From a virus, in IMG/VR virus record IMGVR_UViG_3300032011_000141, positions 1-23,008 of that record: 23,008 nt of DNA; one strand, 5' to 3'. The position numbers and the translations under genes were made by a program. Shown here in pieces: positions 19,172 through 23,008 of the stretch. Each line of letters begins with the position of its first letter. Position 1 is the stretch's first letter. The notes under the pieces are model-generated. The model was not told the DNA's origin and ran no database searches. It saw nothing but the letters and a program-made list of their open reading frames with translations.

Positions 19172-19825
19172 ATGATAGGAGCAGTAACGCAAGGATTGCA
19201 GGGTTTAACTGGTATAGCCAGTGGTATCATAGGTGGAGGTAAGAGAAGAAGAGAACAAAGAGCCGCTGAGAAAGAACTAGCTATCAACAAAGCTAGATAT
19301 GAAAACCTAGATACGTCTAATCTTGCAGCCGATATGGAAAATACATTTGAAGATCTAACCGTAAACACACAAGCGGCAGATATGGCTATGCAACAACAGA
19401 ACCAAGCTTTAGCTAATACCATGGGAGGTATGAATGCTGCAGCGGGTGGATCTGGTATTGCTGCTTTAGCCCAAGCAATGGCTGGTCAGCAATCACAAAA
19501 CTTACAAGCTTCTTCAGCTAGTGTTGGTCAACAAGAAGCTGCTAATCAAATGGCTGCTGCTCAAGGAGCTTCTAATGTTCAATCAGCACAGATACAAGGT
19601 GCACAAGCTTCTAGAGATGCAGAAGCCGCTAAAACAGAAACATTATTAGGCATGTCACAAAGTAGATTAGGTGCTGCTAATGAAGCTAGAGCTGCTGCTA
19701 CAAAAAGTATAACAGATGGTATTGGTAATGTTATGGGTGGCGCTATGGAAGTTGCCGCTGGCGGAGGATTTGGTGGTGCAGCAGGTGGAGCAATGGATAA
19801 AATTAAAGGATTCTTAGGAGGTTAA
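19172..19825 (+). CDS. Putative internal virion (ejection) protein, Ala/Gln/Gly-rich
   Basis: 217 residues. A Gly/Ala-rich, mildly hydrophobic N-terminus (about 1-23) is followed by a basic KRRREQR patch (24-30). Then comes a long helical region rich in Ala, Gln, Asn and Met (about 30-180, with AMQQQNQALANTMGGMNAAA), and a Gly/Ala-rich amphipathic end (about 185-217, MDKIKGFLGG). This composition resembles small ejection proteins such as T7 gp14 and P22 gp7, which leave the head and insert in the cell envelope. The next two genes have related character, and the three would form one ejection set. Direct sequence identity to gp14 was not established. Confidence 0.6.
   Translation: MIGAVTQGLQGLTGIASGIIGGGKRRREQRAAEKELAINKARYENLDTSNLAADMENTFEDLTVNTQAADMAMQQQNQALANTMGGMNAAAGGSGIAALAQAMAGQQSQNLQASSASVGQQEAANQMAAAQGASNVQSAQIQGAQASRDAEAAKTETLLGMSQSRLGAANEARAAATKSITDGIGNVMGGAMEVAAGGGFGGAAGGAMDKIKGFLGG
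19816..19821 (+). promoter_or_regulatory. AGGAGG, the only Shine-Dalgarno-like site seen at a start
   Basis: AGGAGG lies eight bases before ATG 19830 and is formed by the last Gly codons of the preceding gene. All other gene starts here have A/T-only or A-rich leaders. It may be a true ribosome site or a by-product of the Gly-Gly C-terminus. Confidence 0.4.
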
Positions 19826-19829
19826 AAAT

Positions 19830-20969
19830 ATGAGAGCAAATAAAGGATTAATGGAAGGTGCATTTACATCAGCACCTAAATTTCAAAGTTATGAGTTATT
19901 CGGTAACCCCGAGTATAACAAGCAACAAGCTATGCAAAAAATGTATCAAGACAGAAATGTTAGAAAATACATAGATCAAATGCCTAGTATTGAACTTGAA
20001 AAAGTTAATGGTAGTATGAGAGGTCCTACTTCAGAATACTTAAATAACCAACGTATGTTATATGGTAGATTAGCGAGACAATTAGCAAATCCAAATGTAA
20101 GACCAGGAAGTCCTATGTACATGCAGACTATGTCTAAAATGCAGTCGATACAAGGTGATATAAGGGGATTAAGCACAAGTCTAGATAATTTTAAAAATAC
20201 AAAGACAGAATTTTTACAAGACTTTGACGCTGGTATAGTATCTAGAGGATCTAAAATAGATGATTTAAAAGAATTATCAGCTAAAGATAATTACGAAGTA
20301 GCGATACAAAACGGTAAAATGATGGTTCAAATGGAAGATGGCCGTATGGTTTCTTTAGATGATGTTAACGGATACTTTAACAGGAACGCTCAAAGTGTAG
20401 ATGATTTGTTAAAACTTAACCAACAAGCTTATAAAAACGCTATGCCTATAGATGAAAGCTCTGAATTTATGTACAGAAGACAAGTTAGAGAGTTAGCTAC
20501 AAAAGCAGGTAGAGAAGGTTTAATATCATTAGCTGTTGATAATTTTCTTGGAAACCCAATGATAGACATGGATAATCCTAACGATCCAAACTTAGTTTTA
20601 TTAAATGAAAAGAATCATGAACAGTTAAGGGATTTTGTAATTAACAATTGGATGAGTGGTATTAGTCAAGCTGCTGAACAAGCTTACAGCATGAAAAATA
20701 GAGCTGGTAACATGATGTCTAATATAAGCTATAAACAAGTAATGGATATATGGAATACCGGTGATCTTGAACAAATAACTAATATGTTACCATTAAACAG
20801 TAAGGTTAGCGTAGAAGGTTATGACGATGGAACTTATGATTTAAAAATTGGTAGCAGGACTGTTAGAAAAGGTATTGATCCTGGCGAACCACAACATTTA
20901 AATATGTTATTAGAAGTACTAGGTATACCCGGCGGTGGTGGATCTGGTATTGACAATGATTTAATATAA
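19830..20969 (+). CDS. Putative internal virion (cargo) protein
   Basis: 379 residues, largely helical, no signal peptide. The N-terminal part has Tyr/Gln/Met-rich helices (EYNKQQAMQKMYQDRNVRKY at about 28-47) and LYGRLARQLANPN. The middle (about 90-280) is helical with short turns, including DDLKELSAKDN, MVQMEDGRMVSLDDVNGYF and RQVRELATKAGREGLISLAV. A short beta segment (about 325-345, VEGYDDGTYDLKIGSRTV) precedes a Gly-rich tail (GGGGSGIDNDLI). I do not recognise a named family. It lies four bases after an Ala/Gln-rich ejection-type protein and five before a giant ejection-type protein, as in the internal-core clusters of T7-like phages and the cargo clusters of crAss-like phages. Confidence 0.55.
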   Translation: MRANKGLMEGAFTSAPKFQSYELFGNPEYNKQQAMQKMYQDRNVRKYIDQMPSIELEKVNGSMRGPTSEYLNNQRMLYGRLARQLANPNVRPGSPMYMQTMSKMQSIQGDIRGLSTSLDNFKNTKTEFLQDFDAGIVSRGSKIDDLKELSAKDNYEVAIQNGKMMVQMEDGRMVSLDDVNGYFNRNAQSVDDLLKLNQQAYKNAMPIDESSEFMYRRQVRELATKAGREGLISLAVDNFLGNPMIDMDNPNDPNLVLLNEKNHEQLRDFVINNWMSGISQAAEQAYSMKNRAGNMMSNISYKQVMDIWNTGDLEQITNMLPLNSKVSVEGYDDGTYDLKIGSRTVRKGIDPGEPQHLNMLLEVLGIPGGGGSGIDNDLI

Positions 20970-20974
20970 TCAAT

Positions 20975-23008
20975 ATGCAAGACTTATATAGACAAATGTA
21001 TCTTAAATACGCTCCGAATTTAAGTGATGCGGAGCTAAATAAAAAAGTATCCTACGCAATGGAGCAGGATCAAGATACGTTTATAAATGCGTTCTATAAT
21101 AAATACACAGGCGGAGCACCTTCCGCAGAACAATCACAATACATACAGAAAAAATCGGGTTTTTGGGAAAGAAAACTAGACAATATTGAAATAGGTCTTA
21201 ATAGATTTGTTGGGGATGTAGTAGCTGGTGCTGAGCAATTAGCAGGAATACCAGCTGATCTAAGTGATCAATGGGACGATCTTAAAGAACAAGCTAATGC
21301 TATTGGGCAACCAGGTTTTCAATGGTCAGATATATCAAAACTAGAATTTAACAAATTATCAGCTCAAGAAAAAATAGCAAATAGAAAAAATTTTAAAGAA
21401 AATGGATTTTTTGGTTTTGCAACAAGTGCTGATATAGATAGAAGATTACAAATGCTACATGCAAAGCAACCTGAGTATGATCAAAGTATTACTGATGCTA
21501 TTGCAAATGGTGATTTATTAGAAGCTGGAGATAGAATATTAGATGGTGGTTTATCATCATGGACAAGTTTTGTTTCTATGCTACATCCAAAAGCTATAGC
21601 TGCTTTAGCTGTTTCGCATGCTGGTGGTAAGTGGGACGAGAACTTTATGGAAAATCCTGAAATGGCTAATGGATTATTAATGCTAAATGGAGCTGGTACA
21701 GGAGCGATAGAATATCTTGGTGATATGCTTTCTAGAAGATTTATATTACAACCAGCAATGGGTAAGTATAGAGAATTAATGAAAGTAGGAGATGTTGCTG
21801 CTAAAAACGCTGTAAAAGATTTAGCAATAGGTCAAGCAGGTAGATTCTTAAAAACTACTGGTTTAGCTATGGTTGGTGAAGGTGGTACTGAAATGGCACA
21901 AGCTATGGCTGTTGATTGGTTAGATAGTGTAGATAAAATATATGGAACTGATATTACCATAGGTATAGGTAAAAGTGAAGAGTGGGATAAAATAGGCGGT
22001 TGGAGTGGAGCTTTAACTTTAGGTATGGCCGCTGGTGAGCGTAAAAAATGGCACGAGATATATGATGAAGGTATTATAGGTGCTTTTATGGGTGGTGGTA
22101 TAAATGTAGGTTTACAAGGTGTTAATAGTTTAACGGGTAACACTGCACAAAGAAGAGCTGAGGTATTAATGAGACCTAAGCATGAGCAAGAGTATATTAA
22201 CGAAAGAATGAAAAGGTTAAATACTCTACAACAAGAGATTCTACAAACTGAAGATCAATCTGTAAGAGATAGATTAAATGTGGAGCAAGATATATTAAGT
22301 AGAGAAATAGTATTAAAACAAAGCCAAACATCTAAAGTTGTTAGGATGTTAGGTGGTAAAGATCTTATGTCTTATGCTACAAATGTTGATATTATAAACA
22401 CTAACTCTAAAAAATTATCTAATAAGAAAAACCCTGTTTCAACTGAAACTGCTAATTTACTTAAACAAGATATTGATAAAGCTGTAGAAGCTAATAAAAA
22501 ATTATACAAAGATCATTTACATAAATCATTAAATAATAACTTAAATACATCACAAGCATATGCTAACGCTGCTGGTGTAAATCAAGTTGTTGTAGATAAC
22601 CAAGATGATTATCAAAAAGCTTATGAAGAATCAGAGATCGGTAAAAAACAATCTGTAACAGATGGATACTTTGATAATGTAAGAGATACAGATGGATTTT
22701 TTGATGGATCAGGTAATTGGTATATAAATAAAGATCAGGCATTAAAAACAGAGGCCATATCTGTAGGTTCTCACGAACTTTTACATGGTATATTAAAGTC
22801 AACTGTACAAGATGAAAATGGTAATTTAAGTCAACAAGGTCAAAAACTTGTTAAAGAATTTATGGCTAAGTTATCACCAAAACAACAAAGAGTTATACAA
22901 AGAAGAATAGACGCTAACTATAGATTTCAAAGAGATGCTGACGGTAATATAATGAAAGATGCTGAAGGTAAAAATATTGAAAATGATTTTGAAGCTTATG
23001 GTGAAGAA
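20975..23008 (+). CDS. Large ejection-type internal virion protein with zincin (HExxH) domain, 3' truncated
   Basis: An open frame from ATG 20975, five bases after the preceding stop, runs without a stop to the window edge (678 residues). The N-terminus (about 1-50) is compact and helical. Residues about 180-380 hold Gly/Ala-rich amphipathic helices, including EGGTEMAQAMAVDWLD (302-317) and a Gly-rich IIGAFMGGGINVGLQG segment, as in proteins that insert in the envelope on DNA ejection. A coiled coil spans about 400-452. H600-E601-L602-L603-H604 is an HExxH zinc-binding and catalytic motif preceded by a beta strand (AISVGS). Acidic residues at the edge (E673, E677, E678) could give the third ligand. 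Crass-like phages encode very large virion proteins in this position. A peptidase acting on virion or envelope proteins is inferred. Confidence 0.7.
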   Translation, partial: MQDLYRQMYLKYAPNLSDAELNKKVSYAMEQDQDTFINAFYNKYTGGAPSAEQSQYIQKKSGFWERKLDNIEIGLNRFVGDVVAGAEQLAGIPADLSDQWDDLKEQANAIGQPGFQWSDISKLEFNKLSAQEKIANRKNFKENGFFGFATSADIDRRLQMLHAKQPEYDQSITDAIANGDLLEAGDRILDGGLSSWTSFVSMLHPKAIAALAVSHAGGKWDENFMENPEMANGLLMLNGAGTGAIEYLGDMLSRRFILQPAMGKYRELMKVGDVAAKNAVKDLAIGQAGRFLKTTGLAMVGEGGTEMAQAMAVDWLDSVDKIYGTDITIGIGKSEEWDKIGGWSGALTLGMAAGERKKWHEIYDEGIIGAFMGGGINVGLQGVNSLTGNTAQRRAEVLMRPKHEQEYINERMKRLNTLQQEILQTEDQSVRDRLNVEQDILSREIVLKQSQTSKVVRMLGGKDLMSYATNVDIINTNSKKLSNKKNPVSTETANLLKQDIDKAVEANKKLYKDHLHKSLNNNLNTSQAYANAAGVNQVVVDNQDDYQKAYEESEIGKKQSVTDGYFDNVRDTDGFFDGSGNWYINKDQALKTEAISVGSHELLHGILKSTVQDENGNLSQQGQKLVKEFMAKLSPKQQRVIQRRIDANYRFQRDADGNIMKDAEGKNIENDFEAYGEE

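Follow-up and report, generated by a model that had tools for sequence, protein, structure and literature searches.

No domain is more common in polyvalent proteins than the zincin metallopeptidase, and 12 clades of polyvalent-protein MPTases were described by Iyer in 2017 (PMC5512222). These combine a HExxH helix, a second helix carrying a Glu, three strands, and an N-terminal helix, and they form part of giant multidomain proteins whose genes lie among the late virion genes of phages; crAss-like phages appear nowhere in the text of that paper (PMC5512222). The virion RNA polymerase (vRNAP) injected by phage N4 also carries a HExxH domain (PMC12633501), and this polymerase, the best precedent for the protein considered here, is packaged unprocessed (PMC5512222). 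In crAss001, cargo encoded just after the muzzle gene (gp45, gp46, gp47, gp49, and gp50) was found in virions by mass spectrometry and is proposed to be ejected partly unfolded through the tail, in a paper that mentions no protease (PMC10172136). No protease is mentioned either in the Crassvirales review and the structural atlas paper.

The locus compared with these systems is the entire IMG/VR record IMGVR_UViG_3300032011_000141 (the window), a linear fragment of 23,008 bases from a marine bacterial virus. Its gene order, terminase-portal-capsid-muzzle-small ejection-like proteins-giant ORF, is that of the crAss-like/Pervagoviridae virion module and matches Cellulophaga phi38:1 (Pervagoviridae), Maribacter Panino, and Flavobacterium elemoA, and more distantly crAss001. 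Upstream of the giant ORF lie a terminase (phrog_6681, 1e-169), a portal (phrog_6547), a GroES-like protein, virion structural proteins, and the muzzle. The GroES-like co-chaperonin, at 1653-2237 (phrog_13932, 8.7e-23), directly precedes the terminase region, as in phi38:1. The end of the block reads as follows, with identities to the related contigs L013 and L007:

12793-18807, plus strand, muzzle-type virion structural protein of 2004 aa (phrog_14478, E 5e-139; Pfam crAss_MUZ_C, E 5.8e-5, below the curated cut-off)
19172-19825, plus strand, small Gly/Ala/Gln-rich protein of 217 aa, a probable ejection-module protein by sequence and position (84% identical in L013)
19830-20969, plus strand, 379-aa protein, known by its position between the 217-aa protein and the giant ORF (54-56% identical in L013/L007)
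20975-23008, plus strand, giant ORF open at its 3' end, with ATG at 20975 and 678 aa within the window

The 217-aa protein, which starts with a glycine-rich hydrophobic segment and has no profile match, recalls by analogy the small ejection proteins of podoviruses, for instance T7 gp14, and the 379-aa protein is probably a second ejection/cargo protein. In the phages of matching gene order, the very long ORF of the post-muzzle block is annotated as a structural protein (phi38:1, elemoA) or as cargo (crAss001). This shared placement beside genes for virion structure or cargo supports an earlier note on this DNA, which had described the giant ORF as a putative ejection protein: ORF 20975-23008 would encode the N-terminal portion of a giant ejection/cargo protein of the polyvalent type, and by analogy with crAss001 and N4 the protein is very likely ejected from the virion. 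A literature search for virion proteomics of elemo or Cellulophaga phages returned nothing usable. The syntenic giant ejection-type ORF of Panino, CDS0069, has an N-terminal region in common with the window ORF (25% identity over residues 154-368); it is annotated as a 'tRNA methyltransferase', apparently via a phrog_4752 match at residues 381-599.

The same note had drawn attention to a HELLH motif in the giant ORF, with a strand before it and a helix after it, and to acidic residues near 673-678 as a possible source of a third zinc ligand. Translation of ORF 20975 confirms the position of the motif, with CAC GAA CTT TTA CAT encoding H600-E-L-L-H604. The features discussed below are:

22412-23008, plus strand, zincin domain region as aligned, window residues 480-678 (alignments A2 and A3; AlphaFold2 model of the L013 equivalent)
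22715-22729, plus strand, predicted core strand NWYIN, residues 581-585, before the active-site helix (L013 model strand 102-106, ungapped)
22763-22807, plus strand, predicted active-site helix, residues 597-611 (L013 model helix 118-132)
22772-22786, plus strand, HELLH, with H600 and H604 as predicted zinc ligands and E601 as predicted general base
23006-23008, plus strand, E678, predicted third zinc ligand and last codon of the window

At least one HExxH occurs in 0.77% of residue shuffles of the 678-aa ORF, so that the motif alone is no more than suggestive. Since the window domain, used as a direct query against viral contigs, gave no matches, relatives were gathered through the muzzle gene: 80 contigs were found with a muzzle alignment, and the large ORF after the muzzle was then read. 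Among the post-muzzle ORFs, 41 reach 1100 aa or more, and 39 of these have a HExxH, where residue shuffling predicts 0.26; the two without it are those of phi38:1 and Panino. The giant ORFs hold 43 HExxH in 102,360 residues, against 2 in the 408,639 residues of the other ORFs of at least 200 aa on the same contigs; L085 accounts for one of the two, with its zincin ORF. The ORF of L019 has two HExxH, at residues 1064 and 1160, and only the first sits at the aligned active site.

In a 42-sequence alignment of the domain, the only fully invariant columns are the H, E, and H of the motif and one downstream Glu, and A2 (41 sequences) and A3 (23 sequences), which were made independently, agree in having exactly these four as their invariant columns. 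Codon usage varies at all four sites: CAC 25/CAT 17 at the first His, GAA 26/GAG 16 at the motif Glu, CAT 22/CAC 20 at the second His, and GAA 24/GAG 18 at the downstream Glu. This synonymous variation indicates that the amino acid is what is held. The earlier note had made its proposal depend on conservation of H600, E601, H604, and a downstream Glu in homologues, and it is precisely these four residues that never vary. Judged by this conservation, which refutes a chance motif, the HELLH belongs to a real conserved enzyme-like domain.

The window ORF is 47% identical to that of L013 and 45% to that of L007 over residues 1-678. A closer relative, L002, is 95% identical over residues 1-233 and then stops, which is why L013 and L007 stand in for the missing part of the window domain. 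A zincin profile built without elemoA found elemoA gp21 at 9.8e-12 in a whole-genome search; with the same profile, the domain was not found, at this sensitivity, in the genomes of phi38:1, Panino, crAss001, and phi14:2, so that not every relative depends on it. When a profile was made from the 23 sequences closest to the window, it recovered L042, L080, L026, and L040 well and missed the most distant members, L012, L032, L058, and L073, which points to several subfamilies; in the most distant members, the position of the Glu rests on alignment. Searches of isolate phages by tblastn with the L013 and L036 domains gave no matches. The bacterial genome contigs scanned contained no relative of the domain, so at that sensitivity there is no support for a host-derived gene or for an origin from a prophage.

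AlphaFold2 was run with A2 on the closest full domain, that of L013, which is 61% identical to the window in this region (pLDDT 86.5, pTM 0.84). The model consists of a long N-terminal helix (10-53), a strand (56-60), a helix (63-72), two strands (95-97 and 102-106), the HExxH helix (118-132), and the Glu helix (198-209). It thus shows the features of a zincin, with the HExxH on a helix, the third ligand on a later helix, and a three-stranded core sheet plus an N-terminal helix. The strand and helix proposed around HELLH are borne out by this model, and the predicted fold is one that could form a zinc site, a point on which the earlier proposal also hung.

The invariant Glu lies 44-99 residues downstream of the motif in the 42 domains, usually in the context EYLxxFSD, and corresponds to E199 of the L013 domain, within the Glu helix. 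The L013 sequence QYGEE-YLNAYSD aligns with the AYGEE at which the window ends, and the L013/L007 alignment places the invariant Glu at E678, in the acidic stretch that had been pointed out. The zincin domain runs on past the window end, and everything after E678 is inferred from L013/L007. In thermolysin/neprilysin-type gluzincins, the second motif carries an Asp four residues after the Glu ligand (ExxxD/NExxSD). Here the conserved acidic residue stands at +7 from the Glu (D in 31/42, E in 9/42), and the domain is therefore not filed under that type, which was rejected.

In Foldseek searches of the predicted domain against the PDB, the first six matches are all to one zincin, anthrax lethal factor (M34), followed by PPEP-2 and PPEP-3, with E values of at least 0.2, none significant, and TM about 0.3; neither membership of nor shared targets with the M34 zincins (anthrax lethal factor, Pro-Pro endopeptidases) are claimed. 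Against viral models, the best match is an uncultured-virus protein (8.7e-10), and an elemoC structural protein ranks fourth. Against PDB sequences, the A2 profile reached only E 0.3-0.7, with M48 zincins and small neutral protease zincins. When the domain and the full ORFs were scanned against Pfam and PHROG, the matches were scattered and weak, none trustworthy for the domain; Peptidase_M13 (1.4e-4) and ATLF (0.003) were single-member matches and were not taken as evidence of family. On the predicted fold, residues 480-678 and their continuation almost certainly form a zincin metallopeptidase domain, in which H600, H604, and E678 would bind Zn2+ and E601 would activate water.

The complete syntenic ORFs of the relatives are about 1,700-3,700 aa long. 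In 17 of them, HAD-phosphatase motifs (DFDDTLA, LTARP, Lys, ADD) follow several hundred residues after the zincin, always in the same giant ORF:

L013, 22757-23704, HAD-type domain
L010, 23140-24234, HAD-type domain
L009, 24283-25377, HAD-type domain
14 other contigs, HAD-type domain

This domain is found in about half of the long relatives and is 41-52% identical to the L013 copy. The fold search with its model is led by HAD phosphatases, and tblastn against isolate phages gave no match. Within the giant ORF, the HAD domain is better conserved than the zincin. A C-terminal region, PxSAEDFxGLxYxxxGKGKxG...F...L..P, is conserved in L013 and most relatives, including contigs without the HAD domain. 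The zincin, the HAD domain, and the conserved C-terminal region give the relatives the make-up of a polyvalent protein: several unrelated domains stand in one giant polypeptide (in the relatives, as the window shows the N-terminal 678 aa only), and this polypeptide is encoded with virion structural genes, terminase, portal, capsid, and muzzle being directly upstream.

A number of similarities and differences with the described systems can be noted. The domain shares with the polyvalent-protein MPTases both its elements and its setting; however, it has no reliable Pfam/PHROG profile match, and it is likened to them as a group, by topology and architecture. The C1 domain of N4 gp50 (Schitoviridae) likewise sits in a giant injected virion protein and has an invariant HExxH (HELVH in N4) and a downstream Glu. 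With a profile of this HExxH domain built from 10 phages with N4-like virion RNA polymerases, hhalign gave P 3e-5 and a probability of 73% for A3, and P 3.5e-4 and 37.5% for A2, compared with 0.42-0.73 for controls, and the match is in register over the beta-helix-beta-beta-HExxH core. This supports the same superfamily but not membership in the N4 clade. The probability is only 73%, and the Glu context is EYLxxFSD here instead of NEFMAW. The catalytic motif of the N4 vRNAP-type/crassvirus RNA polymerase is DxDGD. This motif is absent from the zincin-bearing giant ORFs examined, and an RNA-polymerase fusion was rejected. Another virion protein with a zincin-like domain is PDB 9sfn chain G, a solved 'internal virion protein' of 1337 aa whose residues 420-560 match the N4-type HExxH profile at 1.8e-8; it contains HEAVH, followed further on by a Glu.

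Nearer to the window, elemoA gp21, annotated as a structural protein, has the same gene position and a HEIFH zincin domain; it differs in being much longer (3694 aa), in carrying a DUF3293 domain before the zincin, and in an annotation without any protease. The crAss001 cargo proteins share the position after the muzzle and the presumed ejection, whereas no zincin domain was detected in the crAss001 genome. The suggestion in the earlier note that a protease delivered with the DNA is less usual does not hold for this class of proteins, given the frequency of zincins in polyvalent proteins (PMC5512222) and the HExxH of N4 vRNAP (PMC12633501). As no Pfam/PHROG family covers the domain, and as the Crassvirales literature cited above is silent on proteases, we call it a new, predicted family of zincin sequences, placed in a polyvalent protein that the virion would carry, and thus a known kind of domain in a lineage for which no earlier report was found.

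Taken as a whole, a zincin domain in a virion-ejected polyvalent protein is a highly probable reading, and the zincin is probably an active protease. The giant protein would travel in the virion and leave it together with the genome or before it, threaded partly unfolded through the portal and tail barrel, and would refold in the host, where the zincin would cut a peptide bond; ejection and action at or after entry are proposed by analogy with the crAss001 cargo (PMC10172136) and the N4 HExxH protein (PMC12633501). Our leading guess for the cut, which may be the main role and to which we give slightly less than an even chance, is cleavage in cis or between copies that would separate the enzymatic parts further along the protein (in the relatives, for instance, the HAD phosphatase) from the N-terminal ejection part. 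That N4 vRNAP is uncut in virions weakens obligatory self-processing before entry.

Self-processing has to be weighed against an effector role, in which the same zincin, once injected, would cleave host proteins (defence, toxin-antitoxin, envelope/cytoskeletal) and not its own polypeptide. Divergence generally grows toward the end of the virion block (2466-23008 compared with L013/L007), from 93-96% identity for TerL to 45-47% for the giant ORF. With L013, identity is 93% for TerL, 92% for the capsid protein, 84% for the portal, 68% for the muzzle, 54% for the 379-aa protein, and 46% for the giant ORF, which is thus the fastest-diverging in the window while its catalytic residues stay fixed; a role in conflict with the host has also been suggested for polyvalent proteins (PMC5512222). 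Fast divergence is, however, equally consistent with self-processing, and the near universality of the domain in the clade and its place inside a larger protein are also expected of a processing enzyme. We regard the effector role as possible but somewhat doubtful. A protease of maturation, processing virion or cargo proteins in the prohead before packaging, would suit the location in the late virion gene block and has a proposed counterpart in P1 DdrB, a protein with a C-terminal metallopeptidase that undergoes cutting before packaging (PMC5512222). But the syntenic phi38:1 and Panino are without the domain, so the assembly of such virions does not need the zincin, and this role is improbable, the more so as N4 vRNAP enters the virion uncut.

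Nor does the HExxH have to signify proteolysis. It occurs also in alpha-ketoglutarate-dependent HExxH enzymes, and the N4 vRNAP structure paper, speaking of its own HExxH domain, notes the motif in zincins and in radical-SAM-associated enzymes (PMC12633501), so the domain could be a fold that binds zinc or iron and has some other activity, or a structural role only. Yet an invariant general-base Glu together with an invariant third Glu ligand is the pattern of zincin peptidases, which the fold search also weakly favours over other folds, and a non-proteolytic domain seems to us a poor prospect. As for a chance motif in an alpha-helical structural protein, the missing Pfam/PHROG match and the shuffle frequency would allow for it, but the conservation among the post-muzzle ORFs, four invariant columns with synonymous codons, and a confident zincin-like model make it vanishingly improbable.

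The most far-reaching interpretation is an undescribed zincin family, near-universal in a large uncultured marine crAss-like/Pervagoviridae-related clade and apparently fast-evolving around a fixed active site, that would be injected alongside a co-injected HAD phosphatase and would cleave a host defence or envelope protein; we consider it unlikely. A prediction of 2017 made zincins the most frequent enzymes among the proteins that phages inject. The relatives collected here provide a comparative set of about 40 sequences with one active site and a natural absence in phi38:1 and Panino. The domain also occurs in a relative available in culture, elemoA, which grows on Flavobacterium BAL314, and the choice between self-processing and host targeting is thereby directly testable. 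With the zincin, the cargo module of crAss-like phages gains a predicted enzymatic function.
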